Source of the DNA: Selenomonas sp.
Lineage (GTDB): Bacteria > Bacillota > Negativicutes > Selenomonadales > Selenomonadaceae
Assembly: GCA_022482925.1 (NCBI GenBank)
Contig: JAKVOG010000007.1
Location: 62,001-126,000, forward strand
Direction: 5' to 3'
DNA length: 64,000 bases
Shown here: piece by piece, positions 1,482-19,079 of the stretch
How the letters are laid out: each line of letters begins with the position of its first letter
Numbering within the stretch: position 1 is the first letter of the stretch
Program-made: the position numbers and the translations under genes
Notes under the pieces: model-generated
What the model was told of the DNA's origin: nothing
Database searches by the model: none
The model's input: only the letters and a program-made list of their open reading frames with translations

Positions 1482-2693
1482 TTATTTCGTTTCCAGTCTT
1501 TTTCGTTTCTCCCCCATGTCGATAATGTTGCTGACGTCGTCTTCGAGCCAGCTGCTGACGGCGGTTTTCTGCTGTTCATCGATGTGGGTGTAGATGTCCA
1601 TGGTGATCTGGATGGTCGAGTGGCCGAGCTGTTCCTGAATGTCCTTGAAGTCGAATTTATGGGATGCTTTCATGCGGCTGGCCATGTCGTGGCGCAGCAT
1701 GTGGAAGGTGGTCTTGATGCCGAGTTTCCGGCGGATCTTGCAATACTGGGAGGAGAATACGCTGGGGTTGATGTACCGGCCGTTCTTGAAGGTGAAGACG
1801 AGGTCCGGATGCTGCCAGTCTTCGGCGCGCAGCCGCATGGCGGACTGGCGGGCTTTGTAGGCGGCCAGTTCTTTGCAGAGGGCTGGCGGGATGAAGATCT
1901 GCCGTTTGCTGGTGGCGGTCTTCGGCTCGGAGAGGAAGATGGGTTTTTCTGCCATGTCCGGCTCGCGTTTGCCGTTGGTCAGGGAGTACCGGACGCGGAG
2001 CCAGCCTTCGTCGAGGTTGATGTCGGTCCAGTGCAGGCCGAGCAGTTCGCCGCGGCGCAGGCCGGTCATGAATTCGGTGAGCAGGATCTGCCGCCAGCAG
2101 TAATAGATGGTGTCGGCCGCGAGCAGTGTCTCGCGGTCTTTTTTTGTCGGCCGGACGAAGGGTTTCCGGGGTGGCTTCCGGGGCAGTTCAAGGTCATCGG
2201 CGGGATTCTCGCGAATGAGCTTGAGGCGGACGGCACGCTGGAAGGCCATGCGGATGACGGCACGAAAGAATTGGGCCGTCCGGAAGTGGCTGCGCATCCG
2301 TGTGTTGATGAGGGTCTGAAGCTCATAGCTGGTGAGTTCGTCGAGCGGGCGCCGCCCAAGTGCGTCGATGGCGATCTGCAGCATATTGTCATAGCCGGCT
2401 GCGGTGCTGGGCCGGATCTTGGGTTTGGAGTAGGTCTCGAACCAGCGTAGAAGCCAGTCTTTGACGGTCATGTGGTCGGCGAGGACGGCGGCCTGGTTGG
2501 CGTATTTCTCGCGCAGGTCGTCAAGGGCCTGACGAGCTTCTTTCTGGGTGAGGCAGGCTCGCGTCCTTTTGATGCTGCGGCCGGTACGTCCGTCGTAGCC
2601 GACGCGGAGCTGGGCGATCCAGCGGCCACGCTTCTCGTCTTTGTAGATGGATCCGTCCCCTGCCGGACGGTGGTGTTTTGGGTTGGTTGTCAT
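1482..2693 (-). CDS. int: Tyrosine recombinase / phage-type integrase
   Basis: A 403-residue site-specific recombinase that would insert and excise the neighbouring element. An N-terminal AP2-like arm-binding region (about residues 10-60) is followed by a core-binding SAM-like domain (about 75-165) and a catalytic domain. Catalytic residues are visible: Arg in TGLRRGELLGLHW, His-x-x-Arg in FHMLRHDMAS, His in EQLGHSTIQITM and the nucleophile Tyr in DIYTHI. The length is normal for the Tn916/phage integrase group. The ATG at 2693 has a GGAGTGACAGG ribosome site. It reads away from the origin-like and repressor region, as usual in integrative elements. The attachment site it uses was not identified with certainty. 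Confidence 0.93.
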   Translation of the reverse strand: MTTNPKHHRPAGDGSIYKDEKRGRWIAQLRVGYDGRTGRSIKRTRACLTQKEARQALDDLREKYANQAAVLADHMTVKDWLLRWFETYSKPKIRPSTAAGYDNMLQIAIDALGRRPLDELTSYELQTLINTRMRSHFRTAQFFRAVIRMAFQRAVRLKLIRENPADDLELPRKPPRKPFVRPTKKDRETLLAADTIYYCWRQILLTEFMTGLRRGELLGLHWTDINLDEGWLRVRYSLTNGKREPDMAEKPIFLSEPKTATSKRQIFIPPALCKELAAYKARQSAMRLRAEDWQHPDLVFTFKNGRYINPSVFSSQYCKIRRKLGIKTTFHMLRHDMASRMKASHKFDFKDIQEQLGHSTIQITMDIYTHIDEQQKTAVSSWLEDDVSNIIDMGEKRKRLETK

Positions 2694-3109: not shown

Positions 3110-3532
3110 TCATTTCCTGACCATGCTTTGCAGGACGACTTCGACGGCCTGACGCTTCTCATCGGAGAGAGCGCTGAGCTGTTCGATGATGCGGCGGTTC
3201 ACGGTGTCGGGGTTGGTGCCTAAGAGATAGTCAACGGTGACGTCAAAGAATGCGGCAATCCTTGGCAGCCGTTCGACGCTCGGAAATGAGCGTCCCTGCT
3301 CCCAGTTGGAGTAAGTGGTTGGTGGTACGCCAAGGATCTCGGCCATTTCGCTCTGGCGAATGGACAGCTCACTGCGGAGCTGCTTGAGTCTTGCCGGAAA
3401 GATGTTTTCCTGATCACGTGCGTCCTGAGCGGAGAGGGCTTCGAGCCGGTCTTTGAGATCCGGTCGAACGTTGACGATAATGGCCGGTCTGGTCTGTTCC
3501 TTGGTCTCACTGTTTGCGGATTTTCTGGTCAA
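3110..3532 (-). CDS. XRE-family transcriptional repressor
   Basis: A 140-residue DNA-binding protein. A helix-turn-helix of the Cro/C1 type spans about residues 47-105 (LKQLRSELSIRQSEMAEIL, then PPTTYSNWEQGRSFPS). A C-terminal segment (about 110-140) is helical and may dimerise. The start is TTG at 3532 behind an excellent GGAGGTAGATCTAT ribosome site. It is transcribed away from the excisionase-like gene, across an intergenic region full of dyads, like an immunity repressor facing an early operon. The target operators are inferred to be those at 3562-3586 and 3668-3725. Confidence 0.85.
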   Translation of the reverse strand: MTRKSANSETKEQTRPAIIVNVRPDLKDRLEALSAQDARDQENIFPARLKQLRSELSIRQSEMAEILGVPPTTYSNWEQGRSFPSVERLPRIAAFFDVTVDYLLGTNPDTVNRRIIEQLSALSDEKRQAVEVVLQSMVRK

Positions 3533-3725: not shown

Positions 3726-3763
3726 TATTTCATCTTAAATATTTGGAAAGGTGTGTCATTATT

Positions 3764-3973
3764 GTGGAAGAGTCAAGGAAGATCATGCTGTCAGTCAAGG
3801 AGTTTTCGGAACTTTCGGGACTGGGTGAAAAGTCAATCCGGCGACTGAGTCATGTGCAGGGATTCCCGGCGCTCCGGAACGGGGTGCGGATTATGATCCA
3901 CCGGCAGGCGGCGGATGCGTGGCTGGCTGATTACGCACAGCACCTGGACAGCTGCCTGCCGACGATTGGCTGA
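3764..3973 (+). CDS. Small excisionase-like HTH protein
   Basis: A 69-residue protein from GTG 3764, chosen because GGAAAGGTG lies 10 bases upstream; a longer TTG start at 3743 is possible. The core, MLSVKEFSELSGLGEKSIRRLSH followed by RIMIHRQAADAWL, has the winged-helix layout of the MerR-like/HTH_17 excisionase family: a first helix, a recognition helix, then a basic wing. Such proteins bend DNA to direct integrase towards excision. Its stop overlaps the next start (TGATG), so the two are translationally coupled. Confidence 0.7.
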   Translation: MEESRKIMLSVKEFSELSGLGEKSIRRLSHVQGFPALRNGVRIMIHRQAADAWLADYAQHLDSCLPTIG

Positions 3974-4353
3974 TGGATACGCTAGGAGGCTGGATGCAGG
4001 AGATCCGCTACTTTTACCGGCGGCAGGCTTCGTATCCGCTTTCGGTGCATGCGCAGGCGTTGTGGGCGTATCTGATGTACCGGGGCAATGAGAATTTCTG
4101 GCATTTCCCGATCCGGCTGTCGGTGTATGAGCTGGCGGGCGCGACGAAGATGTCAGCGACGATGGTGAAGCGGGCGCGGGAGGAGCTGGAGCGGCAGGGG
4201 TATCTGCTGCATGAGGTGTACGGGGGCAATAAGCCGGCAGGCTACTACATGCTGTCATGCCTGCGCCCAGGGACGCCGATGGCGCCGAAGCCTTTGAAGA
4301 TGCCCGCGCAGACGGAGCCTGCTCTTTCGGGAGCAGGGCCGCCGGTGCATTAG
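3973..4353 (+). CDS. Replisome-organiser / DnaD-like winged-helix protein
   Basis: The 126-residue protein is coupled to the preceding gene by a TGATG overlap. The central part (about 25-90) reads as a winged helix seen in phage replisome organisers and DnaD N-termini: LSVHAQALWAYLMYRGNENF, then IRLSVYELAGATKMSATMVKRAREELERQGYL. A short Pro-rich tail follows. The domain usually binds origin DNA. With the DnaA-box-like cluster 1 kb away, a role in replication of the excised element is plausible, but a simple transcription factor is possible. Confidence 0.6.
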   Translation: MDTLGGWMQEIRYFYRRQASYPLSVHAQALWAYLMYRGNENFWHFPIRLSVYELAGATKMSATMVKRAREELERQGYLLHEVYGGNKPAGYYMLSCLRPGTPMAPKPLKMPAQTEPALSGAGPPVH

Positions 4354-5492: not shown

Positions 5493-6137
5493 ATGCAGGG
5501 TGAGGAAAGCCGGCCGGTGGCAATGGCAGCTGGGCTCTCGCGCAAGGCGGAGCTCCTGCTGGCCGTGCTCATCCGGCGTAGCGGCGGCATAGTAGACGAG
5601 TATCTGCTGCGCGACGGAACCGGCCTCAGCCACGGCAGTATCGTCGCCGCCCGCCGAGAGCTCGTCGAGGGCGGCTGGCTGAGGCTTGGCAAGAAGGAGC
5701 GGAAGCTCGTCTACATCTTGACTGGTCAAGGCCAAACAGACGAACAGCTGCCTGCTATGTCCGCCCCTCCCCCTTCTGCTATCGCCTTGGTTCAAGCTGA
5801 TCCGTCAAATGTGACAGCAGCCGATGCCGCCGCAAGCAGCTGCGCCGTGCCATGGCCGCCCGCCAAGGCTGCAGGACCCCATTCGGCTCCCCCGTCACCG
5901 CCATCCGTGGAAGAAGATACCGGCTTTGCCCGGCTCATCGAGCCCATGGAGCATGTCACCGGACACTTTTCCAGTCTGGATGAATGGACCGACGTCCTCA
6001 TCGACACGCTGGGCGGCAACGTCGATATCACCGAATCGCTGGTCGAGGACGATGCCTACCAGATTCATTCCTATGATCACGGTTGCGACGATTGCTATCA
6101 GGTCACGGCGACCGATGACGGCATCCTCGTCGAATGA
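5493..6137 (+). CDS. Winged-helix protein with acidic C-terminal domain
   Basis: A protein of up to 214 residues; ATG 5523 (MAAGLSRKAE) is an alternative start. Residues about 12-75 look like a winged helix: ELLLAVLIRRSGGIVDEYLL, then LSHGSIVAARRELVEGGWL, then a basic wing. A Pro/Ala/Ser linker (about 85-130) leads to an acidic C-terminal domain (DEWTDVLIDTLGGNVDITES, DDAYQIHSYDHGCDDCYQV). It ends 10 bases before the amidase start, so the two are probably co-transcribed. Perhaps an element regulator or replication accessory factor; not recognised further. Confidence 0.6.
   Translation: MQGEESRPVAMAAGLSRKAELLLAVLIRRSGGIVDEYLLRDGTGLSHGSIVAARRELVEGGWLRLGKKERKLVYILTGQGQTDEQLPAMSAPPPSAIALVQADPSNVTAADAAASSCAVPWPPAKAAGPHSAPPSPPSVEEDTGFARLIEPMEHVTGHFSSLDEWTDVLIDTLGGNVDITESLVEDDAYQIHSYDHGCDDCYQVTATDDGILVE
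5718..5729 (+). repeat. TTGACTGGTCAA motif, recurrent in the element
   Basis: This near-palindromic 12-mer, or its first 11 bases, occurs at 5360-5370, 5718-5729, 8871-8882 and 9809-9819. The 8871 copy fills the spacer of a good promoter, so it may be an operator. The copies at 5360 and 5718 lie in coding sequence and the one at 9809 lies in a terminator stem. Confidence 0.5.
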
Positions 6138-6147
6138 AGGAGGGCTT

Positions 6148-6708
6148 ATGAACATATTCATCAATCCCGGGCATGCGCTGGGCGGGAATCCTGACCCCGG
6201 CTGTGTCAATACTGCCCTGGGTCTGCGCGAATGCGACCTGGCCATCACCTATGGCAGCCTTACCGCCAGCTATCTTGAAAAGGCAGGCTGCGCTGTCAAG
6301 CTCCTGCAGAGCCAGAATCTCGCGGGCGAATCACCTGGCTGGCCCTGCGTCGTTGACACAGCCAATGGCTGGCCTGCCGATGTATTCCTCAGCATCCACG
6401 TCAACGCGGGCGGCGGACGAGGCCCCGAGACCTACTGCTACCAGATCCCGAGCGAAGCCGGGACACTCGCGACCTGCGTCCAGCACCAGCTCGTCACCAG
6501 TCTGCAGGGCATCGACCACTGCTATTATGACCGAGGCGTCAAGCAGCGCCACGACCTCTGCGTCCTGCGCCAGACCACCATGCCCGCCATCCTCATCGAG
6601 ACCGGCTTCATCGACAGCGACGACGTGAACCTCCTGACCGGTCACGGGGATGACATCGCCCGGGCGATTGCCAGAGGAGTCACGGACTACTGGCAGCAGA
6701 GCTGCTGA
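6148..6708 (+). CDS. N-acetylmuramoyl-L-alanine amidase (Amidase_3)
   Basis: This 186-residue zinc amidase cleaves the bond between N-acetylmuramic acid and the stem peptide. The ATG at 6148 has a GAAGGAGGG ribosome site. The whole protein is one catalytic domain: zinc ligands His in INPGHALGG (residue 8), Glu in LRECDLAI (about 28) and His in LSIHVNAGGG, and the catalytic Glu in ILIETGFIDS. There is no signal peptide and no cell-wall-binding domain, which fits an endolysin-like or element lysis protein more than a secreted housekeeping amidase. A strong terminator follows at 6731. A holin was not found in this operon. Confidence 0.9.
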   Translation: MNIFINPGHALGGNPDPGCVNTALGLRECDLAITYGSLTASYLEKAGCAVKLLQSQNLAGESPGWPCVVDTANGWPADVFLSIHVNAGGGRGPETYCYQIPSEAGTLATCVQHQLVTSLQGIDHCYYDRGVKQRHDLCVLRQTTMPAILIETGFIDSDDVNLLTGHGDDIARAIARGVTDYWQQSC

Positions 6709-9104: not shown

Positions 9105-9326
9105 ATGGCAGTACGAAACAGCCAGACCAGTACACTGAAGCTGAAGCTTCAGACTGGCATGAACGCAAAGGGTGAGCCGAAGGTGGCCATCCATACGTTC
9201 AGTCACTTCAATCCAGCCATGGCCGATGACGATTATCTCGCTCTCGGCAACGCCATCGGCAAACTGCAGACCTTACCGGTTCTGTTCGTAGGCCGTACGG
9301 ATTCGGCCGACCTGACGGCAGAATAA
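9105..9326 (+). CDS. DUF1659 family protein
   Basis: A 73-residue protein from ATG 9105 behind AAGGAGGGATT. The family pattern is present: an N-terminal strand (STLKLKLQTGMNAKGEPK), a 'tf-s-h-f-n-P' turn, then a helix ending GNAIGKLQTLPV. Members are small intracellular proteins of unknown function in endospore-lineage Firmicutes and are nearly always followed by a DUF2922 gene and often YvrJ, as here (14 bp to the next start). Confidence 0.85.
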   Translation: MAVRNSQTSTLKLKLQTGMNAKGEPKVAIHTFSHFNPAMADDDYLALGNAIGKLQTLPVLFVGRTDSADLTAE

Positions 9327-9340
9327 GGAGGTAGCGCAGT

Positions 9341-9554
9341 ATGAAAACCACACTCGAAGTAATCTTCCTGCTGGAGGATGGCAAATCGACCACCTTTGAG
9401 CTGGAGAACCCACGCACAGATCTCACGAAAGCAGAGGTTGTGGCTGTGGCCAATAACATGATCGAGAAGAAGGCACTCCAGATTAGCGGTCTGAACCTTG
9501 CAGCCGTGAAGAATGCCTTTGTCCGCAAAGTGGATGAAGGTCAGCCTCGCCTAA
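9341..9554 (+). CDS. DUF2922 family protein, apparent frameshift near the end
   Basis: The ATG at 9341 follows AAGGAGGTAGC. The 66 residues that are in frame (KTTLEVIFLLEDGKSTTFEL..., SGLNLAAVKNAFVRKVDE) fit DUF2922, the usual partner of DUF1659. As read, the frame then runs on through a terminator to 9649 with a Pro/Arg-rich tail. Removing one G near 9539-9540 restores a short end, VDEVSLA-stop, at 9554, just ahead of the terminator and typical of the family. A single-base insertion in the sequence is therefore likely. Function unknown. Confidence 0.8.
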
Positions 9555-9584
9555 CCCGTTCCCCGCGTGCCCGACACGCAGAAG

Positions 9585-9613
9585 AGCCCCGGCACAGATG
9601 CCGGGGCTTTATT
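9585..9613 (+). terminator. Intrinsic terminator between DUF2922 and yvrJ
   Basis: AGCCCCGGCA / TGCCGGGGCT around CAGA, then TTTATTT. It probably attenuates expression of the downstream YvrJ gene relative to the first two. Confidence 0.85.
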
Positions 9614-9630
9614 TGTAGAAAGGACCCATC

Positions 9631-9780
9631 ATGGAACAGACTATCCTGACCGCGATCTCGGCCGTCGGCTTTCCCATCGTCGTGACCTTCTACCTGCTGA
9701 CCCGGTTCCAGAATTCCATGGACCGCTTCACCGAGCAGCTGGGCGAACTGGTGAAAGAGCTGCAGCACAGCCGGAGCTGA
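9631..9780 (+). CDS. yvrJ: YvrJ family small membrane protein
   Basis: A 49-residue peptide from ATG 9631 with a GAAAGGACC ribosome site. One membrane helix carries the family signature (AVGFPIVVTFYLLTRF) and is followed by an amphipathic helix (SMDRFTEQLGELVKELQ). YvrJ proteins accompany DUF1659/DUF2922 genes in many Firmicutes. Their role is not known; a membrane anchor or small regulator is possible. A strong terminator starts at its stop codon. Confidence 0.85.
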   Translation: MEQTILTAISAVGFPIVVTFYLLTRFQNSMDRFTEQLGELVKELQHSRS

Positions 9781-9835
9781 AAAGAGCGGAGCCGCTAGTC
9801 AGTCAAAATTGACTGGTCAGCGGCTTCGCTCTTTT
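9780..9835. terminator. Long bidirectional terminator
   Basis: An imperfect stem of more than 20 bp, with arms AAAAGAGCG and CGCTCTTTT outermost and AGCCGCT/AGCGGCT inside, serves both yvrJ (+) and the secreted-protein gene at 9847 (-). The TTGACTGGTCA motif (9809-9819) forms part of the apical stem. Confidence 0.85.
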
Positions 9836-9846
9836 GCTGCCATAAA

Positions 9847-10308
9847 TCAGATCGGCCAATGATTTCTTAATTCAACCCCAGATGCCCCTTTCACGAGACG
9901 ATAGGCGCGATCAAAATAGCCCACACTGAACAGCTTTTTGGTATCATTCCATTTTCTTCCATCAAATGAGTAATAGGTTTTACCAGTCTGCCTGTTTTCG
10001 GACAGATACATCGTCTGCTGGCCGCCCATACTTTCTGATGTATTATTTTGTCCCATATGCCGCTCAAAGCAGACATCATATGAGATAATCGCAATCTTTA
10101 TACGGTTTGCCGTATTTTCCGAAAGATAGGCGGAACTGACATCCCAGATATTGCCCGCGCCGGTTCCCCGACTCCATACAGGATAATTTATATCACCATG
10201 CCAGCATTCTACCCCATCTACTCTTGCCGTCGAAGAATATGCCTGGGCATTTACTGGGAACATACAGACAGCCAGGAGCATAAAGCTTAACAGGAACAAC
10301 TTCTTCAT
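9847..10308 (-). CDS. Secreted protein of unknown function (paralogue of 8054-8500)
   Basis: The 153-residue protein starts at ATG 10308 behind GGAGGGGATATC. Signal peptide: MKKLFLLSFMLLAVCMFP, cleavage likely after AQA. The mature protein has VECWHGDINYPVWSRG, IKIAIISYDVCFERHMG and TMYLSENRQTGKTYYSFDGR, in the same order as the paralogue at 8054. Two Cys residues could form a disulfide. Its promoter (10349-10377) is back to back with the start of the large RNA at 10399. Function unknown; envelope or surface role inferred. Confidence 0.75.
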   Translation of the reverse strand: MKKLFLLSFMLLAVCMFPVNAQAYSSTARVDGVECWHGDINYPVWSRGTGAGNIWDVSSAYLSENTANRIKIAIISYDVCFERHMGQNNTSESMGGQQTMYLSENRQTGKTYYSFDGRKWNDTKKLFSVGYFDRAYRLVKGASGVELRNHWPI

Positions 10309-10348
10309 GATATCCCCTCCATATATCGTCATTGATTCCATCTTTTTA

Positions 10349-10377
10349 ATTATAGCAGACTGCCAGACTGCTGTCAT
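10349..10377 (-). promoter_or_regulatory. Promoter of the secreted-protein gene
   Basis: Minus strand: ATGACA (10372-10377), 17-bp spacer, TATAAT (10349-10354), about 40 bp before the start codon. It diverges from the large RNA. Confidence 0.7.
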
Positions 10378-10398
10378 AGGGATTAACGGAGGTGTGGT

Positions 10399-11826
10399 GG
10401 CGAGCTGGATGCGAGCCCGTTCCGGCCATGTGATGTGGCGGTGTCGGTAACGACGTGGAGACCGGAGGCGGGCGAAGACTGCCGGAGGTGTCCACCAAAG
10501 GAACGGACACCCGGGCCTGTGACGTGGATTGCGTGGGGAGAGTCTGACGGCGGACTGGAGCATGTCCGAATGGATGGAGGGCTCCTACCAGTGGGGAAAG
10601 AGGGCGAAGACCTGAGCCCCCGCGCTGGCAGGAGACTGGAATCCTGAGCGGCGGTCGGAGGGCAGCCGTCAGTCTCTCCCCACTGATCGGCGATGCTGTC
10701 TGATCTCGCCGCACTCTCGGCGTCGTCTGCGACGTGGGCCCTTCGGGTCCACTCAAGCAGCTGGACGCTGGCGAACTGGTGCTCTTTCGCATCATGGCCA
10801 TTGTTCGGCGGCGGCTCAGCCGCCCGCTGCCGGACCTGCGCGGAGTGACGGGAGACTCCCGCCCCATGGACGGGGCGGTGCGGGCGCGGGCTGGACGTAA
10901 GCCGGATGCGCCATGGAATAGTTCCGATAATGCTAGCGACTGTATATCGGATGAAGGGGGGCGAAGCATCCGGTGGATGCTTCGCGGCTGACAGGTTTAT
11001 CGAGTTGTCGGATGAGCATTCCCTATCGAGTTTGCAAGGACCAGTCCCGGACAAGGGAGAAGTGCCAGCCCGGACAGATTGCTGCCGGGGGCTGGTACTG
11101 GCTGGCGGCCTTATCCAGCCTATCGGATGAGCCCTACCAGGCAGGGCGGCTGGCCGGTCTTATCGCTCCAGCGGATGTGCGCACTTCCCTTGCTTTCCTC
11201 GAACGTTCCCATACAAGACGGCCCTCCAGCCGTTAGGGGCCCCACTTTCCGATATGCCGCGGGTTATCGGAACTATTCCCGCAGGTTTGGGCGCCACGGA
11301 TGAGCGAGAAGCTGGGACTTGCTTTTATGACCATAAAGGCGAGTACGTGGCGGTCCTGACGACGTGGATGGTGCGGACCGCGCGGGTCAGGCAGAGCCAG
11401 CCGCAGGCGGGCTGGCCCGCACGGGCTGCGCTGTCCACCAAAGGAAGGAGCTGCCTCGTGCCAGGGACGGGATGCCAAGTCCTGGCGGTCACGCTTTGAG
11501 CCGGGCTTCCTGCTCTCCGGCGTACTCCTGCGACGTGGACGGCCCGGAGCTGGCGGCGCTGACGGTATGGACGGGCGGGAATGCCTTGGGCTATGGTGAT
11601 CATGCGCTGCGGGTATGAATCCCACCTGCGCGGCCAGTGGAGAGCGGTCCACCAAAGCTGTGGTACGCAAAGGCCCCAAGCAGAGGTGGGCAGTCTATGG
11701 AAGCGGAGCGGAGCCTGCCGGTCGCAGGTCGGTGGCAGAGCCCCGCTGGAAGACGAGCTGCTCACGTCTGCGCCGGATGCAGAAATACAAAAGCAGAAAA
11801 TCATTGAGCTGTGATTTTCCGCTTTC
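10399..11826 (+). ncRNA. Very large structured RNA, copy A (undescribed family?)
   Basis: About 1.4 kb of GC-rich sequence has no credible gene but many helices. It is homologous to the minus-strand segment 15072-16515. Shared blocks include GGCGAGCTGGATGCGAGCCC (10399-10418), the GTCG-GTAA-CGAC hairpin (10443-10454), the GGTGTCC/GGACACC hairpin (10487-10511), a 60-nt block 56/60 identical (10576-10635), a 27/28 block at 11531-11558 and a 22-nt identical block (11647-11668). The words CGACGTGG (10451, 10730, 11360, 11531) and GTCCACCAAAG (10490, 11433, 11647) recur. The middle (about 10760-11340) is variable. The 3' hairpin at 11790-11825 plus U-run is the likely terminator. I cannot match it to GOLLD, ROOL, OLE or HEARO from memory; it is longer than all of them. 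Confidence 0.7.
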
Positions 11827-11845
11827 TTGTGATTCTTATTTTTTT
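11790..11845 (+). terminator. Terminal hairpin of RNA copy A
   Basis: Fourteen-base arms (AAAGCAGAAAATCA / TGATTTTCCGCTTT, one G-U) with an 8-nt loop are followed shortly by a run of nine or more T (about 11840). The convergent protein gene ends at 11836. Confidence 0.7.
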
Positions 11846-12066
11846 TTGACTTCCAACAGTTTATGATTGTACCGATCTACGAATGCCTTATTTGTCTGGT
11901 AGAATTTCTTTACATCATTGACTAATCCTTCACCAATAGAATCCGGAATTAACTGTGTCGTTCGCTTGGCTTCTGGTACAGCCGAAAAATCATCATGTTT
12001 CCAAGATCCGCTATAATCTTCATCTGTATCTTGTGATAGATAGGTCATGGAGTTGCTTATCATATT
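11836..12066 (-). pseudogene. C-terminal part of the IS4-split secreted protein gene
   Basis: This is the 3' part of the gene whose 5' part is 13654-14310. Deleting the IS4-family element and one copy of the 6-bp duplication joins the halves in frame (...ICKLKYNM + ISNSMTYLSQDTDED...). This segment contains QLIPDSIGEGLVNDVKKFY, equivalent to FIVPDSIEERIFNAAVILC at the end of the homologous gene 14382-15065. It is out of reach of its own start codon now. Confidence 0.85.
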
Positions 12067-13653
12067 ACTCAAACTTCGCAGTTGTGAAACGGTCCATTAA
12101 TTCTTAAATCAACTTTTTCAAAATAAAATAGCATAAGTCATCTCCGCTTTGTATAATGAAAGTGACAAAAATCCATAACACAAACGGAGGGCTTATGCCA
12201 TGAATATTGTAGCACATCATCATCGTTCCAGTGAACTCCTTTCTTCAAAAATCTCGCATTTTCTTGAAGAATTCCATGTCAGCAAGATTCTCAGATCTTG
12301 TAATGCATATAAAGTACGCGGATTTTCAGCAAAAACGGTATTTCAGGTTGCCTTTGAAAATGCATTCAGCAACAAATCGTTTTTTCAGAAGGAGAAAGAG
12401 ACTTTGCCCTCTCTCCCCTTTGCCAAAGATACGTTTTACCGTTTCATGAACTCCTGCAGTGTCAACTGGCGTAAGTTTACGCTTCAGCTGGGCTTTGCTG
12501 TTATCCATAAAATTGCTCCGCTTACGGATGAGAGTCGTCGCAATGTGCTCATAATCGATGATTCTCTTTTCAGCAGATCTCGTTCCAAGAAGGTTGAGCT
12601 GCTGGCAAAGGTCTATGACCATGTGGAGCACAAATATACCAAAGGTTTCCGCATGCTGACGCTTGGATGGAGTGATGGTAATTCATTCCTTCCGCTCAGT
12701 CATTGCCTGCTTTCCTCTGCCAACCGTGAAAACCGTCTGCAGGAAGCGTCCGTTGGCGTTGATGCCAGGAGTAATGGCGGTAAGCAACGTAAGCTGGCAC
12801 AGACTAAAGCAACCAGCGTACTCCAGACGCTTCTGAAAGAGGCGAAAGCAGTCGAAATTCCAGCTAAGTATGTTCTCTTTGACACCTGGTTCTGTTCGCC
12901 GATTTCGCTGATTCAAATCAAGGAAATCGGCTACGACGTTATTGCCATGGTCAAGAAATCGGAGACCATCCATTTCCGTTACAATGGCCGAATGCAAAGC
13001 GCGCCAGCTATCTTCCGTGCTGCTACGAAACGTCGTGGGCGTGCCAAGTTCCTGCTTTCTGTAGAAGTTGAAGCAGTAAAAGACTCAATGTCAACACCGG
13101 TGAAATTAGTCTTCGTAAGGAACAAGAATAACCGTCAGGAGTATCTCATCCTAGCTTCGACTGATGTCAATCTGTCAGAAGAAGAAATCATTCAGACTTA
13201 TGGTAAGCGCTGGAATATTGAAGTCTTTTTCAAGATGTGCAAATCGTTCCTGAAGCTGGGGAAAGAAAACCGGACAATGTCTTATGATGCCATGACGGCT
13301 CATGTCTCCATTGTCTTTGCTCGTTACACGATGTTGTCGCTGGAGCAGCGCCGAAATGCAGATAAACGCAGCATTGGTGATCTGTTTTTTGCCTCGTATG
13401 ATGAGCTGCAAGATTTACGTTATATGGACGCGTTGCTATTGATTTTGAAAAAATTCATTGACAGGATAAAGGAACGAATGCTTTTCATGGAAAAAGAACT
13501 GGATGAGATGCTTAATTCTTTCTTAGAAAAACTGCCATTCTTATGGCACAACTGTTTGAAACACTGTGCATGATGTTGGCATTTAAGGAGTCACATTCCC
13601 TTGCTATGCATTATTGCAGGCTTGTTTGGGATGTGCGAAGTTTGAGTCATATT
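12061..13653 (+). mobile_element. IS4-family insertion sequence with target duplication
   Basis: The element spans 12067-13647 (1581 bp). The terminal inverted repeats share ACTCAAACTTCGCA exactly and further partial identity inside. It is flanked by a 6-bp direct repeat, CATATT (12061-12066 and 13648-13653). It carries one transposase gene. The intact ends, the exact duplication and the restorable target frame all indicate a recent insertion. Confidence 0.92.
12200..13573 (+). CDS. IS4-family transposase
   Basis: This 457-residue DDE transposase moves the element at 12067-13647. Catalytic residues: Asp in VLIIDDSLFSR (about 117), Asp in YVLFDTWFCSP (about 226) and Glu in the IS4 signature Y-x2-R-x3-E-x6-K (YGKRWNIEVFFKMCK, about 335-349), all present and in frame. 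The N-terminal 90 residues form a DNA-binding region. The ATG at 12200 follows GGAGGGCTTATGCC; the protein is full length and the copy may be active. Confidence 0.93.
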   Translation: MNIVAHHHRSSELLSSKISHFLEEFHVSKILRSCNAYKVRGFSAKTVFQVAFENAFSNKSFFQKEKETLPSLPFAKDTFYRFMNSCSVNWRKFTLQLGFAVIHKIAPLTDESRRNVLIIDDSLFSRSRSKKVELLAKVYDHVEHKYTKGFRMLTLGWSDGNSFLPLSHCLLSSANRENRLQEASVGVDARSNGGKQRKLAQTKATSVLQTLLKEAKAVEIPAKYVLFDTWFCSPISLIQIKEIGYDVIAMVKKSETIHFRYNGRMQSAPAIFRAATKRRGRAKFLLSVEVEAVKDSMSTPVKLVFVRNKNNRQEYLILASTDVNLSEEEIIQTYGKRWNIEVFFKMCKSFLKLGKENRTMSYDAMTAHVSIVFARYTMLSLEQRRNADKRSIGDLFFASYDELQDLRYMDALLLILKKFIDRIKERMLFMEKELDEMLNSFLEKLPFLWHNCLKHCA

Positions 13654-14310
13654 ATATTTCAGTTTACATATCTCCGCTTTTTGAATTTCATCATTACTGT
13701 TATAATGATATATCGTATATGTAAAATAAATGTCATCACCGTCTGATTTTATTGAGTTTGTCGAAATATAAAATTTATTCATACCTGTAATTCTTTTAGT
13801 ACCATAATGGATATGATAACTTTTGCCATGATTATATACAGCATACTCATGATTCTCCGTTAAATGCTCAATTGTGTAATACATAATTGGTTGGTAAAAA
13901 TCTTGCTTTTCTACATTTGTCTCATAGACCTTCATGTATTGCGTTAGCAATGTACCGTCTTTCATATAAAAACCTGTAAAATTTCGTTGAACGTCTCCCG
14001 TCCAAAAATATAATCTTAATCGGTATATCCCATAGCCGTCCTGTAATTTTTCAGGCTTCACATAGGTATTGTCATAACTATCAAGTTCAGTCTTAGCCCC
14101 CTTGTAGGAATACTTGACCATCATCCATACATCTGCATAATCCGCATTATCCCCATACACATAATGTGGACTTATTGTCTGCGTATCCAAGAAAAATCCA
14201 TAGTAATCATTCGATTCAATCCATTGCCACTGATGCTGCAGTGCCTGGCTCACATTGCTGAACTGAAGGAGCAGCAACAAGCAAATACAGATACTTTTTA
14301 TAAGTCTCAT
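13654..14310 (-). pseudogene. N-terminal part of a secreted Adhesin_E-like protein, split by IS4
   Basis: ATG 14310 (GGGAGGGGATTGG ribosome site) opens a signal peptide (MRLIKSICICLLLLLQFS, cleavage after SQA). Two units of about 110 residues follow, each opening with a Trp-rich strand and a 'Y..F.DTQTI' or 'I.TNSI' motif (QWQWIESNDYYGFFLDTQTI), which resembles surface-adhesin E-like domains of Negativicutes. Without the IS the protein would be about 295 residues. It is the counterpart of the divergent gene 14382-15065 and is convergent with RNA copy A. The as-read frame continues into the IS and stops at 13591. Confidence 0.75.
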
Positions 14311-14329
14311 CCAATCCCCTCCCACTTGA

Positions 14330-14358
14330 TTGACATTCTATTTTCATTATATCATAAT
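14330..14358 (+). promoter_or_regulatory. Promoter for the gene at 14382
   Basis: TTGACA (14330-14335), 17-bp spacer, CATAAT (14353-14358). It lies in the 71-bp region between the two divergent secreted-protein genes. Confidence 0.65.
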
Positions 14359-14381
14359 ATGTTTTAAGAGGGGGCATATTC

Positions 14382-15065
14382 ATGAAACAGATCATTAGTG
14401 CATCACTATTGCTCATAACACTGATGCTGCCAAGTAACTTTTCTTTTGCATCAGCGCGTTGGGTCAATGCAGAATCTACACCAGATTGCAATACCTATGT
14501 TGATTCACAAACAGTATCGTATAATAAAGACGACAATAATATCACGTATTGGATAAAGAGAACTAGTCCTCCAGCTTATGGCTATACATTCATGGAACAG
14601 CATAGCTGTAACTTGACAGAGAAAAAGATCGACATCTTGAAATCCATAACTTATAAACAGGAAATCCTACAAAGATCTACCAATACCCCACATTCATATG
14701 TTATTCGCATTACTCCGGATTCCCCTGCAGAGCATGAGGTCAATACTGCTTGCAGTACCATCGGTTTAGCTCCTGTTCTTGGCGTATCGACACATCGATG
14801 GAAATGGATCCATTCTACAGACAAGACTTCCTACTCCATCTGTGTAGATCAGAAAGAGTACAATCCGGCAACCGGCAGAGCACTGATCTATATAAAGAAG
14901 ACTTATTTGAACGGAAGACATTGGACACAGGCTTATGTTTGTAATTTAAAAGAAAACACGCTAACGACATCACTTGATGAATCGAACAATGATCAAAAGT
15001 TTATTGTCCCTGACAGTATTGAAGAACGGATATTTAATGCAGCGGTTATCCTATGCAAGCAATAG
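14382..15065 (+). CDS. Secreted Adhesin_E-like protein (two repeated domains)
   Basis: A 227-residue exported protein; ATG 14382 follows AGAGGGGGCATATTC. Signal peptide MKQIISASLLLITLMLP, cleaved about residue 27. Two domains start with RWVNAESTPDCNTYVDSQTV and WKWIHSTDKTSYSICVDQKE, each about 100 residues and each holding Cys pairs that could form disulfides. The C-terminus, FIVPDSIEERIFNAAVILC, matches the end of the IS-split gene at 11836-14310. Its stop lies 6 bp from the shared terminator that ends RNA copy B. The role is unknown; an envelope location is inferred from the signal peptide. Confidence 0.75.
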   Translation: MKQIISASLLLITLMLPSNFSFASARWVNAESTPDCNTYVDSQTVSYNKDDNNITYWIKRTSPPAYGYTFMEQHSCNLTEKKIDILKSITYKQEILQRSTNTPHSYVIRITPDSPAEHEVNTACSTIGLAPVLGVSTHRWKWIHSTDKTSYSICVDQKEYNPATGRALIYIKKTYLNGRHWTQAYVCNLKENTLTTSLDESNNDQKFIVPDSIEERIFNAAVILCKQ

Positions 15066-15070
15066 TTTAT

Positions 15071-15102
15071 AAAAGCTCCGTCGGTTATCGGCGGAGCCTT
15101 TT
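15071..15102. terminator. Bidirectional terminator shared by 14382 gene and RNA copy B
   Basis: AAAAGCTCCGTCGG / CGGCGGAGCCTTTT arms with a short loop are flanked by A and T runs on both sides. Confidence 0.9.
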
Positions 15103-16515
15103 ACTATCCCGAGAAATGCCTCGCGTACCACAGCTTTGGTGGACAGCCCTCCTCAGGCCGCGCTGGCGAGCTTTCTCTCCGCAATGCATGCGCTTCTCTT
15201 ATAGCCCAGTCCATTCCCGCCTGTCAGGGCGTTTCCTGCGCCGCCTGCTCCGGGCCGTCCACGTCGCAGTCGTACGCCGTGGGCGCAGCTCAGGGGCTCC
15301 TGCCTTGAGATCCTTTCTCTGAATGCTGCTACAGGCACGGGCGTCCTTCCTTGGGTGGACAGGGACACTGTGAGTCAGCAAGCCCCCGTCAGGAATTAGC
15401 CCACTCGGCAGATGATGGGCTTCCTGCCAGCAGAAGATAGGAAAACGTCAGGCACAGCCCACCATCATAGCGCAAAGCCCCACGCCTGCCCGCACAGCGT
15501 ACCCGTCCACTTCGTCCGGACACCATCCGGCGGATGGCTGCGCCCCGCCTTGCTATACGCCGCCCCCGCGGGATGGGGCGGCTTTTTGCGCTCTGGGGCT
15601 CGTGGGCAAAGCTCGCTCCGGACCGCATCCTCCTCGCCAGTCGCGCTCACCTTGGGTGGTCTTTGCGCCCTGGCTGGTGATTTTTCCGCGAGCGCCCTGG
15701 CAGCAGCCTGCCGGTTTCGCGCTTTCCCTGCCTGCGGGGGCGCGGTCCTCCGCTCAAGGAAAGCCGCCTTGCATGCATTCCGATAACTGCCTTTCGCCTA
15801 TCGCCAGCGAGCACCCTGCGGGCGGCCCCTCACGCCATCGATAGGCACAGTTATCGAAACGCATACGCGGACTGCAGCTCTTCATGGTGGCCGCATCCAG
15901 CTCCTGCATCGGCCGCATCCCTGCGTCCGCCCACCAGCCGCCCGGCGGGCCGACACGCCGACCTCATCAGCTGGAGGCCGCTTTCCCGTGAGCAGGGAAG
16001 CGGCCGGATCAGGACACGGGACACTCAGCTGCTGCGCTCCGGACCGGAAGCAGCGTCCGTTGCCCAGCCCTGCAAGAAATCCTGACCGCATATTAGGGAA
16101 TGGACATATCAGCCCGCCCAGCAGGGTTCGCGTCATCCATGGCTTTGGTGGACAGGTTCCTGTCCACGTCGCCAGCGATGACCGGGGGCGCAGCTCATCA
16201 TACCAGCAGCCCAGCTCATCAGGGACGGACTGCCAGCCTGGCGCCGCCTCGGCGTTCGGACCTGCGATCTCCTGCCAGTGCGGGGGCTCAGGTCTTCGCC
16301 CTCCTTCCGCACCGGTAGGAGCCCTCCGGCCACTCAGCCGCAGCTCTGCCAGTCAGGCAGACCGTCCCTGTGCATGCTCGTCACCGGCACGGGTGTCCTT
16401 TGCCTTTGGTGGACACCCTCCGGTCGGCTGCCGCCCACCTCCAGGCATCCACGTCGGCAACGACACCGCTCCATCCGGGAGCCGGGGGACCGGGCTCGCA
16501 TCCAGCTCGCCTTAA
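15072..16515 (-). ncRNA. Very large structured RNA, copy B (undescribed family?)
   Basis: The minus-strand counterpart of copy A. Read from 16511 it starts with the same 20 bases, then the GTCG-TTGC-CGAC hairpin with a changed loop, the GGGTGTCC/GGACACCC hairpin (16391-16418), the 60-nt block (16268-16327), a hairpin GTGGACAGG-AA-CCTGTCCAC flanked by CGAC and CAAAG (16143-16170), the 28-nt block (15239-15266) and the 22-nt block (15123-15144). In the 60-nt block the stem CCAGTG/CGCTGG of copy A is CCGGTG/CACTGG here, so pairing is kept by compensating changes. Another helix, about CGATAACTG with CAGTTATCG (15779-15856), is specific to this copy. No frame is conserved between copies. Confidence 0.7.
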
Positions 16516-16566
16516 GTAAAACCATCTCCTCATTTCAAAAACGCACTTTTCTTTCACCAAAATATG

Positions 16567-17259
16567 TCAAATATTATGAAACTGACCTTTAAATAAATCA
16601 TGAGAATATCGTGAAACAGTAGTTTCCTTTTCAATATTACCTCTCGTTGTCTCTATATCTAAAACCGCTTTGAATGACACATCATTTTCTATATGTGGAC
16701 AACCTGGGAAAAACACAAATCCTTCCACCACTTCATAAGCCCGCATATTAATTACAGGCTTTAAAAAATTATCTTTCAGAAGTATTACATCATGCTTAGT
16801 ACCATCATAAGGTTCCATATCATAACTATCCGCAGGCCTTGCATTTGCCTGGCTGGAATTCAAGACTGCTTTATTAGGCATCACTAATTTAAATTGTGCA
16901 ATTCCGATTGGGAGTTGTGATCGATTTTCAATGCGAAGATAAATAAGTAACCGATTATCTGCAGTAAAATGGTCACTCCTATCATAGGGAAAATAAATTG
17001 GTGACGGAAGAATTTCTACATGTAAATTCCATCGCTCCTTATGCTCATTAAACAAATAGTTTGCAATAGCAGCAAAACTACCTGCTGAAAATGGAAATAC
17101 CAGTAACGATACTACCTTATCAGGAATAGCCGGAACAAAATACATTACACTTCCGGCTGCAACAAAGATGCTACCGATACAACCTCCAATCAAAAATTTA
17201 TAAGGGTGTCTATGAATCTTACTATCAATTGACTTTGCCATTCTATTTACGTAGTTCAT
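16567..17259 (-). CDS. Inner-membrane protein, unknown
   Basis: A 230-residue protein with a basic N-terminus (KSIDSKIHRHPYKF), two membrane helices (about 22-44 and 48-68: LIGGCIGSIFVAAGSVMYF, VVSLLVFPFSAGSFAAIA) and a soluble C-terminal domain of about 160 residues, rich in beta strands (RLLIYLRIENRSQLPIGI, NMRAYEVVEGFVFFPG). It lies upstream of RNA copy B in the same orientation, with about 50 bp between its stop and the start of homology. I do not recognise a family. Low GC compared with flanking core genes suggests acquisition with the island. Confidence 0.65.
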   Translation of the reverse strand: MNYVNRMAKSIDSKIHRHPYKFLIGGCIGSIFVAAGSVMYFVPAIPDKVVSLLVFPFSAGSFAAIANYLFNEHKERWNLHVEILPSPIYFPYDRSDHFTADNRLLIYLRIENRSQLPIGIAQFKLVMPNKAVLNSSQANARPADSYDMEPYDGTKHDVILLKDNFLKPVINMRAYEVVEGFVFFPGCPHIENDVSFKAVLDIETTRGNIEKETTVSRYSHDLFKGQFHNI

Positions 17260-17348: not shown

Positions 17349-18456
17349 TTTGTAGATTTGTCAATGATGTGAGACCTAAAAAATGACAAAATCCTAGAGA
17401 AAATTCAAGTGGTCTACACCAGCTGCTTTCGCTTTTGAATTGGAGAAAGCCAATTCAGTGATTGCATGGGGATCTGATTGGCTCTGCGGCGATAACGGGC
17501 CATCTGTAGATTCAAGTCATCAAAGGAGTAGAACTTCAGATGGTTATAGAAACGCTCTTGATCGCTCCTATGGCTGCGTTCGACTTTACCGTTATGTCTA
17601 GGCGTCCGAGGCCGGATGCGCTTGTGGTTTATGCCTAACTTCTGGCAAAGGACATCCAGCGGATGAGTTCGGTCCGTTTTGGCAATATGAGTAAACTCTG
17701 CCCCATTGTCCGTTTGCAGAATTTGGGGCTGGTAACCGAAATAACGGATGGCACGCTGGAGAAAATCTACTGTTGAAAAGCTGGTCTGTTCAAGGTATGG
17801 ATAGAGGAATCTCTCCCTCGAAGCTTCATCAATCACGGTATATTGGTAGAATTTCTGAGGCATATCGCCTGTATAACAAGCGGTAGGGACATATTTGACG
17901 TCCATCTGCCATTTAACACCAATCTGATCAGGGGTATCATAGGGCTTCGGCACATAAGCCTTCTTGGTAGAAGAGGCCTTGGATGAGTATCTAAGCTGGC
18001 GGAAGACACGGTATAGGGAGAGCGGATGGCGGGAATAACCTTTCTGGGACTTGAGCTTGCCGAACATCTCCAATAAGGATATATGAGGATTCCTGCGATG
18101 CAGATCATGAATCCATTTAAGTTCCTGCTCGGTATGTGAGTTTGGGTGAGGAGAATGCGGTCGATGTGAATGATCCAGCAAAGATTCCCGCGTCTCATCG
18201 AAGCGTTTATTCCAGCGCATCAGAGAAGCTTTAGAGATATGGTAGCGACGACAGACGAACTTGACGCCGACGCCAGAGCGGTAGAGCTTGACGGCATAGA
18301 ATCGAGTAGAAACTTCATGTGGCAAATAACGATTGGAATGTGGTATACTAGTCAAAACGGTTAACATCCTTTCTGAATTTGGTGTGCAAATTAAATTCTA
18401 CAGGATTTAACCGTTTTTTTATAGGGGTGGTCTCACATCAATTGTAAAGCTACAAA
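17349..18456 (-). mobile_element. IS481-family insertion sequence
   Basis: The ends are imperfect inverted repeats of 28 bp (23 matches), starting TTTGTAG and including TGATGTGAGACC, at 17349-17376 and 18429-18456. One transposase gene lies inside. No clear target duplication is seen, so the insertion is old or has recombined. The right end recurs at 1049-1096, marking the far side of the accessory region. Confidence 0.9.
17414..18367 (-). CDS. IS481-family transposase
   Basis: A 317-residue DDE transposase encoded in a single frame, as is typical for IS481. An N-terminal helix-turn-helix (VCRRYHISKASLMRWNKRF, about 38-58) recognises the ends. The rve integrase core has Asp in KWQMDVKYV, Asp in ILQTDNGAEF and Glu in RHNGKVERSHRSDQERF. 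All three are intact, so the enzyme may be functional. The ATG at 18367 is preceded by AGAAAGG. Confidence 0.92.
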   Translation of the reverse strand: MLTVLTSIPHSNRYLPHEVSTRFYAVKLYRSGVGVKFVCRRYHISKASLMRWNKRFDETRESLLDHSHRPHSPHPNSHTEQELKWIHDLHRRNPHISLLEMFGKLKSQKGYSRHPLSLYRVFRQLRYSSKASSTKKAYVPKPYDTPDQIGVKWQMDVKYVPTACYTGDMPQKFYQYTVIDEASRERFLYPYLEQTSFSTVDFLQRAIRYFGYQPQILQTDNGAEFTHIAKTDRTHPLDVLCQKLGINHKRIRPRTPRHNGKVERSHRSDQERFYNHLKFYSFDDLNLQMARYRRRANQIPMQSLNWLSPIQKRKQLV

Positions 18457-18534: not shown

Positions 18535-18623
18535 GGAGAGGTGTCCGAGTGGTCGAAGGTGCCGCACTCGAAATGCGGTAGGGTTAATAGCCCTCGTGGG
18601 TTCGAATCCCACCCTCTCTGCCA
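18535..18623 (+). tRNA. tRNA-Ser (anticodon CGA)
   Basis: The cloverleaf is complete: acceptor GGAGAGG pairs with CCTCTCT (first pair G-U), the anticodon stem CCGCA/TGCGG encloses loop CTCGAAA (anticodon CGA, reads UCG), there is a long serine-type variable arm (AGGG/CCCT), the T arm has GTTCGAATC, discriminator G and an encoded CCA. Confidence 0.95.
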
Positions 18624-19079
18624 TTATGAAATTAAGCCCTGCAGCTGATGCGGGGCTTTTTTTTGCACAAAATCGACAAACAAAAAACCGGCCAGCTGCC
18701 TGACCGGTCAATCCACAAATAAAACACACCTTTTCCTGACGATAAAACTTCTTCTGTCCTCATCCTATGGACACAGTAAACTCCTGAAGATCTCCCTCCG
18801 TTCCCTTCTTCGTCCACACAATTCCGCCTAAAACCTGCGGGCTGACTGCGGGTTTCCGTAAAGAAATCCCATGCCAGCTCATACCCCGAAAAATCATCAA
18901 ACAACCAGCTTTACAAAGCAACATCCCGCAATCCCAATAAAATCAAGGTCTCCCGAGCCCGCGCCAGTCCTCGGTTCATGGACATTCTCGAACTTGACCC
19001 GTCAAAAGTCAAAAGGATGACTCGAAATCAAGTGTGGTGAATAGCCACCGTGGGTTCGAATCCCACCCTCTCTGCCATT
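18595..19079 (+). repeat. Direct repeat of the tRNA-Ser 3' end (putative att sites)
   Basis: The last 31 bp of the tRNA region (18595-18625) recur exactly at 19049-19079. Similarity extends back to the anticodon loop (ACTCGAAAT near 19019), although the variable arm differs by compensating changes. A second, beheaded tRNA-Ser, or the att scar of a lost integrative element, would look like this. The 420 bp between contain a terminator (18634-18664) and no credible gene. Confidence 0.6.
18634..18664 (+). terminator. Terminator of tRNA-Ser
   Basis: AAGCCC / GGGGCTT with a loop of about 12 nt and a run of eight T. Confidence 0.75.

Follow-up and report, generated by a model that had tools for sequence, protein, structure and literature searches.

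The closest described counterparts of the RNA reported here are the giant bacterial RNAs GOLLD, ROOL and OLE and the noncoding transcripts of phage satellites. In PMC12286853, GOLLD appears as an ornate noncoding RNA of phages and prophages, often near tRNAs, with many members longer than 800 nucleotides (nt) and one that forms a 14-mer cage; ROOL is a phage and prophage RNA whose solved representative, from cow rumen, is 659 nt long and forms a nanocage; the purpose of these RNA-only cages is given as unknown, and OLE is said to work with partner proteins and to form dimers. PMC7567579 presents the PLE inter-inverted-repeat transcript and the ICP1 long noncoding RNA (about 800 nt) as noncoding, the first from a phage satellite and the second from its helper. 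Analysis of a 64,000-nt stretch of Selenomonas sp. (assembly GCA_022482925.1, contig JAKVOG010000007.1, positions 62,001 to 126,000; hereafter the window) reveals two diverged copies of an RNA gene, A (plus strand, 10399–11668) and B (minus strand, 16511–15123), which almost certainly belong to a genuine class of noncoding structured RNA. Although mobile DNA of bacteria is already known to encode giant structured RNAs, we found none in the literature that corresponds to this family, to its module plan or to its inverted pairing; in the open-access literature, mostly without subscription papers and preprints, the matches listed include no description of this RNA.

The new RNA shares with GOLLD its size class, its ornate noncoding character, the phage-like genes around it and, in two bounded elements, attachment repeats of tRNA-Ser or tRNA-Leu, although with no tRNA array. 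It differs from GOLLD in having no Rfam match, in its recurring four-module plan and inverted gene pairs, and in a host element without detected structural genes. Phage linkage and rumen source are common to it and ROOL, but again there is no Rfam match, and full copies of the new RNA (about 1.0–1.4 kb) are paired and have about 1.5 to 2 times the length of the solved ROOL. OLE is likewise a large ornate noncoding RNA; it is set apart by its partner proteins and dimers, and its Rfam model does not match either. The likeness to the PLE and ICP1 transcripts, compared by description only, lies in their being noncoding RNAs of a satellite or helper, for which the accessible text of PMC7567579 describes no conserved giant fold.

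A and B represent one RNA gene in two diverged copies. Their local alignment scores 217, whereas alignments with 100 dinucleotide shuffles of A average 26.6 and reach 34 at most, and the ordered shared blocks described in the original prediction were found again (Table 1). A BLAST search of the same genome with A (10399–11750) returned only A itself and two stretches of B (expectation values (E) of 1.1e-41 and 3.8e-25). G+C content is 63–68% inside the RNAs and about 33–56% in their surroundings. The earlier proposal that GC-richness and mobile-element linkage distinguish known giant RNAs from this one does not hold, as the RNA is itself GC-rich and lies inside a phage-like integrative element. 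The strong terminators proposed for both ends are weaker than claimed: hairpins are present at 11789–11826 and 15075–15097, but the scored T-runs lie on the strand opposite the RNA, and a consensus terminator scan of 10200–16700 gave 10 terminator-like sites compared with 6.2 (standard deviation 2.4) in shuffles. Positions 11611–11636 of A resemble the end of a tRNA-Ser T-arm (77% of 26 letters), probably by chance; no such match was listed for B.

No reading frame is common to A and B, as had been predicted: in an alignment of 19 copies that includes A and B, all six frames of every copy carry at least two stops. On the antisense strand, A has an open stretch of 255 codons and B one of 242, both slightly above the 95% point (238 codons) of mononucleotide shuffles of a shorter copy, L031p; the open stretches of the other 17 copies fall below it. 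Rfam, which includes HEARO and group I/II intron models, yielded at gathering score nothing but RNAs located elsewhere, namely a tRNA in the window and, among six related loci, two tRNAs and one 6S RNA. With the threshold relaxed to E 10 in 10000–17000, three snoRNAs and one sRNA appeared, all far below their gathering scores and at chance level; up to E 5 in one type-2 copy, matches to a microRNA, two sRNAs and RAGATH-32 were also far below gathering scores. The covariance models of GOLLD, ROOL, OLE, HEARO and group I/II introns were unmatched in the window, in 10000–17000, in the six loci and in the type-2 copy. Thus, no Rfam family was recovered for the RNA beyond chance-level matches.

The 5′ core of the RNA has a covarying fold. 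Standard pairs occupy 95.2% of 625 cells compared with 81.5% after shuffling, 24 of 42 pairs show double changes (13.4 shuffled), the covariation score is 0.407 (0.152 shuffled), and none of 500 shuffles attains any of five measures. The shuffles ignore kinship, which is corrected for by a slide control, itself applied to a structure derived from the same sequences; shifting the partner by 1–3 columns lowers the score to 0.08 or less. The differences within the 60-nt block, initially interpreted as compensating (CCAGTG/CGCTGG and CCGGTG/CACTGG), fall in core helix 7, with 12 of 16 helix pairs changed on both sides. Beyond the core, 11 full-length type-2 copies give a consensus of 271 predicted pairs, 54 of them with a double change, and domain 3, a two-helix arm represented by six sequences from two genera, is 98.0% paired (85.9% shuffled) with a score of 0.392 (0.133 shuffled; 0 of 500 shuffles for both). 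Covariation in the wider alignment is thereby borne out in the core and supported across genera in domain 3. The sense strand is favoured throughout: fold z-scores, from 15 shuffles each, are lower in sense than in antisense for both copies (Table 1), energies are better in all three alignments (sense/antisense, A1 −51.2/−42.0, A2 −333.5/−289.1, A3 −141.4/−113.1), and the sense strand of the core has 24 G-U cells compared with 4 A-C cells. At about 0.6 kb or longer, with a covarying structure and no protein frame, this is almost certainly a giant structured noncoding RNA. Neither a stop-free frame nor an Rfam match nor a lack of covariation appeared, which supports the new or unassigned giant RNA class of the original prediction. 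A middle arm rich in C- and G-runs, spanning ~300 columns (about 480–790 of alignment A2), is near-invariant in 10 of 11 type-2 RNAs, L034p being without much of it; a similar arm is visible in L027m, L028m and L030m of alignment A3, and A and B of the window are without it.

The hairpin noticed between CGAC and CAA(A)G was confirmed. It belongs to a module that recurs about four times per full RNA, typically at offsets of 11, 255–311, 725–920 and 850–1200 from the core start. Among 62 module rows from 29 stretches, the internal loop occurs in matched versions, namely CGAC/CAAAG (30 rows), CGAA/CCGAG (16), CGAC/CCAAG (12) and others (4), and CGAA is paired only with CCGAG in these rows. Two copies missed by the fixed-motif script that collected these rows have other loops on visual reading, CGAC/TCAAG in module 2 of A and CGAA/CCAAG in the probable module 3 of B. 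The internal loop may resemble tandem G-A motifs such as kink-turns. Two covariance models were built, R1 of the 5′ core (15 copies, 230 positions, 42 pairs) and R2 of the 55-nt module (21 sequences). Several type-2 RNAs contain a second R1 match in their 3′ half (for example, L031 19057–19263, 126 bits), so that the type-2 RNA looks like two related halves.

Homologues are concentrated in one genus. R1 detected 18 of 189 genomes of the family and the same 18 among 380 genomes of the class, including a weak match in G002 that R2 does not support; R2 detected 18 of the 380, consisting of 16 of 22 Selenomonas genomes together with G164 and G168 of one other genus in the family. In a phylum-wide sample R2 matched 4 of 398 genomes, all four Selenomonas, and a degenerate pattern applied to one genome per species (84,980 species) gave 13 matches, 10 in Selenomonas ruminantium and 3 in Selenomonas sp. 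By blastn, 11 of the 189 family genomes matched, including G118 and G119, whose matches of 27–28 nt are taken as chance because R1 finds nothing in the corresponding loci L037 and L038. The copies of G164 align with one another and have in common with those of Selenomonas the core hairpin, the module (in minus-strand copies) and domain 3. Blastn of A against phage and plasmid collections gave no match. In viral contigs, a 17-nt exact pattern occurred in four loci (L021–L024); R1 reached only 10.9 bits (E 0.86) at the pattern in L021 and 10.7 bits (E 0.96) away from it in L023, while L022 and L024 had no R1 match. None of three longer patterns occurred in the same contigs, and the module pattern occurred once, in L104, inside an open reading frame (ORF) of 206 amino acids without a Pfam match on a phage-like contig (R2 20 bits, R1 12), which is taken as chance.

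Paired copies are inverted. On 31 contigs with matches, all 14 pairs of neighbouring copies within 10 kb are inverted (9 divergent, 5 convergent) and none is on the same strand, in a listing that merged same-strand matches less than 1 kb apart. The pairs are not independent events since some share descent (G150/G151; the two G164 elements). In a tree of 29 cores, in which 7 of 26 inner branches are well supported, copies of the same element are sisters in L032 and group with the same position of another element in G164. The G164 pair encloses a tyrosine recombinase gene (L069 7463–8386, PF00589) instead of cargo.

Most copies lie within phage-like integrative elements carrying integrase, repressor, endolysin and holin-like genes. 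The fullest gene order runs from an integrase through a CI-like repressor, an excisionase-like helix-turn-helix (HTH) protein, a DnaD/replication-like HTH protein, two unnamed proteins, an Amidase_3 endolysin and cargo to a DUF1659/DUF2922/YvrJ group with the RNAs; DUF1659 is often absent from this group, which is holin-like by PHROG. A tblastn map of 13 sequences (12 loci and the window) located YvrJ in 13, the amidase in 10 and the integrase in 8, several of these loci being cut off by the end of the contig or of the fetched stretch; of another 12 loci, 9 have YvrJ and 3 the integrase. Two elements are bounded: that of L033 (13.6 kb) lies between perfect 63-bp repeats that include the 3′ end of tRNA-Ser, at 2795 and 16378, and that of L031 (15.6 kb) between 22-bp repeats of the 3′ end of tRNA-Leu, at 4081 and 19678. 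The PHROG classes matched are integrase, regulator, excisionase, replication, repair, endolysin, holin and transposase. PHROGs for capsid, terminase or tail drew no match in the 19 ORFs picked from L033 (all scanned), in 10 of 24 ORFs of L031 (three more were scanned with Pfam) or in 19 window ORFs, the picking (48 amino acids or more, longest first) being such that some antisense ORFs displaced small holin-type genes. Integrase, repressor, tRNA attachment repeats and the lack of a capsid or terminase match in the ORFs scanned together make the elements satellite-like, with PICI-like phage satellites as the nearest kind. They resemble phage satellites also in their excisionase-like and replication-like genes and in their size, but the Selenomonas element encodes, in addition, an endolysin, holin-like proteins and two giant RNAs.

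In the window, the attachment repeat expected beside the integrase was not found. An insertion sequence (IS) with an rve transposase (17414–18367) has inverted ends at 17349–17376 and 18429–18456, and a further copy of its end lies at 1070–1096 (region 1047–1096); IS ends thus appear to lie on both sides of the window element, which may have changed position or undergone rearrangement. The 3′ end of tRNA-Ser (18602–18623) is repeated 454 bp downstream (19056–19077), like the attachment repeat of L033 but with almost nothing in between, which may mark the place where an element was lost. Between the two RNAs of L031, positions 10598–13861 hold a C5 methylase, an HNH nuclease and a Vsr-like nuclease, which suggests a restriction-modification cargo. 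Three relatives, G149, G159 and G163, have an integrase match without RNA matches. The G149 locus (L108 318–2216) retains, from ten proteins searched, only integrase, repressor and half an amidase, with no RNA, and therefore looks decayed; the 5-kb contig of G163 has no module match.

Table 1. Features of the two RNA copies and of the surrounding element (window coordinates; R1 and R2, covariance models of core and module)
Feature	Position	Strand	Remarks
RNA copy A, conserved part	10399..11668	+	Transcript could extend to hairpin near 11826; fold z −7.0 sense, −4.3 antisense
RNA copy B, conserved part	15123..16511	-	Transcript could extend to hairpin near 15075; fold z −9.6 sense, −3.4 antisense
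Shared block 1	A 10399 / B 16511		21/21 identical
Shared block 2	A 10576 / B 16327		56/60 identical
Shared block 3	A 11528 / B 15269		31/32 identical
Shared block 4	A 11647 / B 15144		21/21 identical
Core 5′ domain of A	10440..10688	+	R1 188.5 bits; A among the 15 model-building sequences
Core 5′ domain of B	16214..16467	-	R1 171.7 bits; B among the 15 model-building sequences
Most conserved hairpin block in A	10568..10635	+	90% complementary to 16268–16335; core helices 7 and 8
Most conserved hairpin block in B	16268..16335	-	90% complementary to 10568–10635; core helices 7 and 8
Module 1 of A	10440..10513	+	CGAC-GTGG...CCAC-CAAAG within outer stem; R2 40.5 bits
Module 2 of A	10719..10771	+	Loop CGAC/TCAAG read by eye; R2 38.4 bits
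Module 3 of A, expanded arm	11349..11457	+	R2 23.6 bits, E 0.0024
Module 4 of A, long arm	11518..11668	+	By eye, CGACGTGG at 11531 to CCACCAAAG at 11649; blocks common with B; no R2 match
Module 1 of B	16390..16467	-	R2 50 bits
Module 2 of B	16129..16182	-	R2 52.4 bits; among the 21 sequences of R2
Probable module 3 of B, long arm	15336..15525	-	By eye, CGAA...CCAAG; motif offsets 953 and 1109; no R2 match
Module 4 of B, long arm	15123..15269	-	By eye; blocks common with A; no R2 match
Domain 3 of A	10915..11279	+	Closing arms 10915–10930 / 11264–11279 complementary 16/16
Domain 3 of B	15770..15866	-	CGATAACTG..CCTATCG / CGATAGG..CAGTTATCG; kept in second genus
Tyrosine integrase	1482..2693	-	PF00589; phrog_1
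CI-like repressor	3110..3532	-	HTH_3; phrog_8/4/3
Excisionase-like HTH protein	3743..3973	+	HTH_17 below cut-off; L033 counterpart matches phrog_66 excisionase
DnaD/replication-initiator-like HTH protein	3973..4353	+	phrog_186, weak; counterpart in L033
Small conserved element protein, 61 amino acids	4484..4669	+	tblastn map; no Pfam/PHROG family
Conserved element protein, 214 amino acids	5493..6137	+	tblastn map; no Pfam/PHROG match
ORF with endolysin	5824..6708	+	Amidase_3 PF01520 over residues 111–287; phrog_435
DUF1659 protein	9105..9326	+	PF07872
DUF2922 protein	9341..9649	+	PF11148
YvrJ protein, holin-like	9631..9780	+	PF12841; phrog_4898 holin, E 4.7e-5
IS transposase, inserted between A and B	12200..13573	+	PF13546; inverted repeats 12058–12080 / 13634–13656
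Cargo gene between A and B	13591..14325	-	No family
Cargo gene between A and B	14382..15065	+	No family
tRNA-Ser(CGA)	18535..18623	+	Gene kind serving as attachment site of the L032/L033 element (attachment repeats)

Taken together, these observations somewhat favour a new class of giant structured noncoding RNA belonging to small phage-like, satellite-like elements of Selenomonas and a related genus, usually present as inverted pairs and probably serving in scaffolding or assembly, much as is proposed for GOLLD and ROOL. We infer that the gene is transcribed and that its product functions at the RNA level; its size, its modular repetition and its context suggest a structural action, and a function tied to the life cycle of the element is very probable. 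The RNA would be made on induction of the element, in which integrase, repressor and lysis genes are present. Its repeated modules, each with a 3-by-4-nt purine-rich internal loop and often with short-loop caps, could offer equivalent docking points by which the RNA would fold into a large rigid body; this body may assemble with its own copies or with the RNA of the partner gene, and, in line with proposals for GOLLD and ROOL, would retain some component of the host or of a phage or keep it sequestered. That the RNA works as a scaffold or multimer at all, a proposal by analogy, is tentative and rates at rather less than an even chance. An elaboration, in which the two paralogous giant RNAs of an element would co-assemble into an RNA-only particle as container or scaffold for an element without detected capsid genes during its mobile phase, is improbable.

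Several observations weigh against this structural reading. The scan found no promoter-like site just upstream of A on the plus strand, and that ahead of B matches 9/12. Multimer formation is argued solely from repetition and analogy. The module pairs yield little covariation because the module is near-invariant (score 0.076 compared with 0.051 shuffled, a level reached by 22 of 500 shuffles; sliding by −3 gives 0.111), and domain 3 is indecisive on two of its five measures (five double-change pairs, with 10 of 500 shuffles as high, and nine further pair types, with 79 of 500). The comparison of G-U with A-C cells leans to whichever strand is folded since RNAalifold favours G-U, and antisense structures likewise contain more G-U than A-C. 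Nor does the tree clearly support a two-subunit design: the copies of an element are not sisters throughout, and they do not split consistently into two lineages. Within the genus, 6 of 22 genomes have no match. L072 (G147) contains a shortened copy of ~0.65 kb (9550–10199, minus strand from 10199) with none of ten element proteins within 19 kb; it adjoins what we read as an argininosuccinate-lyase-like gene and a C5-methylase remnant. L079 and L080 are without the YvrJ operon, and several short copies are deleted remnants: in L077 (9550–9668) an internal deletion joins module 1 directly to the end of module 4, and L079 (9135–9255) holds a second-half fragment only, while the short solo copies of L078 (9322–9467) and L080 (9977–10146) are known as model matches only.

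The strongest rival to a scaffold is a regulatory or decoy RNA, which would titrate a protein or a helper-phage factor, or pair with transcripts of the element or phage, as do PLE noncoding transcripts. Such a role would suit satellite-like elements, one of them with restriction-modification-like cargo, and has a precedent in PLEs, for which PMC7567579 reports a noncoding transcript that is abundant and is homologous, in antisense, to the leaders of the PLEs themselves; the size of the RNA and the depth of its conserved structure would nevertheless go beyond the needs of an antisense or sponge, and the explanation is unlikely. Lower still stands descent from GOLLD or ROOL so distant that Rfam models no longer recognize it. 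The same size class, the phage-like host elements and the tRNA-associated integration would be expected of such a relative, as would the rumen origin of the solved ROOL (PMC12286853), but neither family is among the Rfam matches at any of the thresholds applied to 10000–17000, the type-2 copy and the six loci, a separation made by models and not by pairwise structure. Similarly doubtful is a feature acting as DNA, in which the inverted pair, possibly folded as single-stranded DNA, would take part in recombination, replication or packaging: the consistent inversion, the recombinase gene enclosed in G164 and the position of one copy ending within about 0.5 kb of an attachment repeat in the L032/L033 and L031 elements speak for it, but it is made less likely by the preference for the sense strand in folding energy and G-U use.

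The remaining explanations carry little weight. A cis-regulatory leader or attenuator of the neighbouring operon would account for the small operons that the RNA adjoins, but neighbouring genes vary between elements, the copies point both ways and more than 1 kb is long for a leader, so that this is very improbable. More improbable still is the remnant of an intron or mobile ribozyme (group I/II or HEARO-like), a large structured RNA in mobile DNA being common to both cases, as no such family is among the Rfam matches and A and B interrupt no recognised gene of the window. A degenerate protein gene, to which the long antisense open stretches of A and B could point, is refuted by the stops in every frame of all 19 copies and is further opposed by the covariation of the core.

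Only a small number of giant structured RNAs have been described from bacteria, and the role of those of phages is not known. The structural reading would add a further giant RNA class, one that model searches do not link to the others. It would rank among the largest, be built of modules, occur in inverted pairs and be carried by compact elements of culturable rumen bacteria. If the RNA-only particle were true, the element would build its container or scaffold from RNA rather than protein. Because many strains carry the RNA and the bounded elements are so small, the role of phage-linked giant RNAs becomes directly testable in these bacteria.

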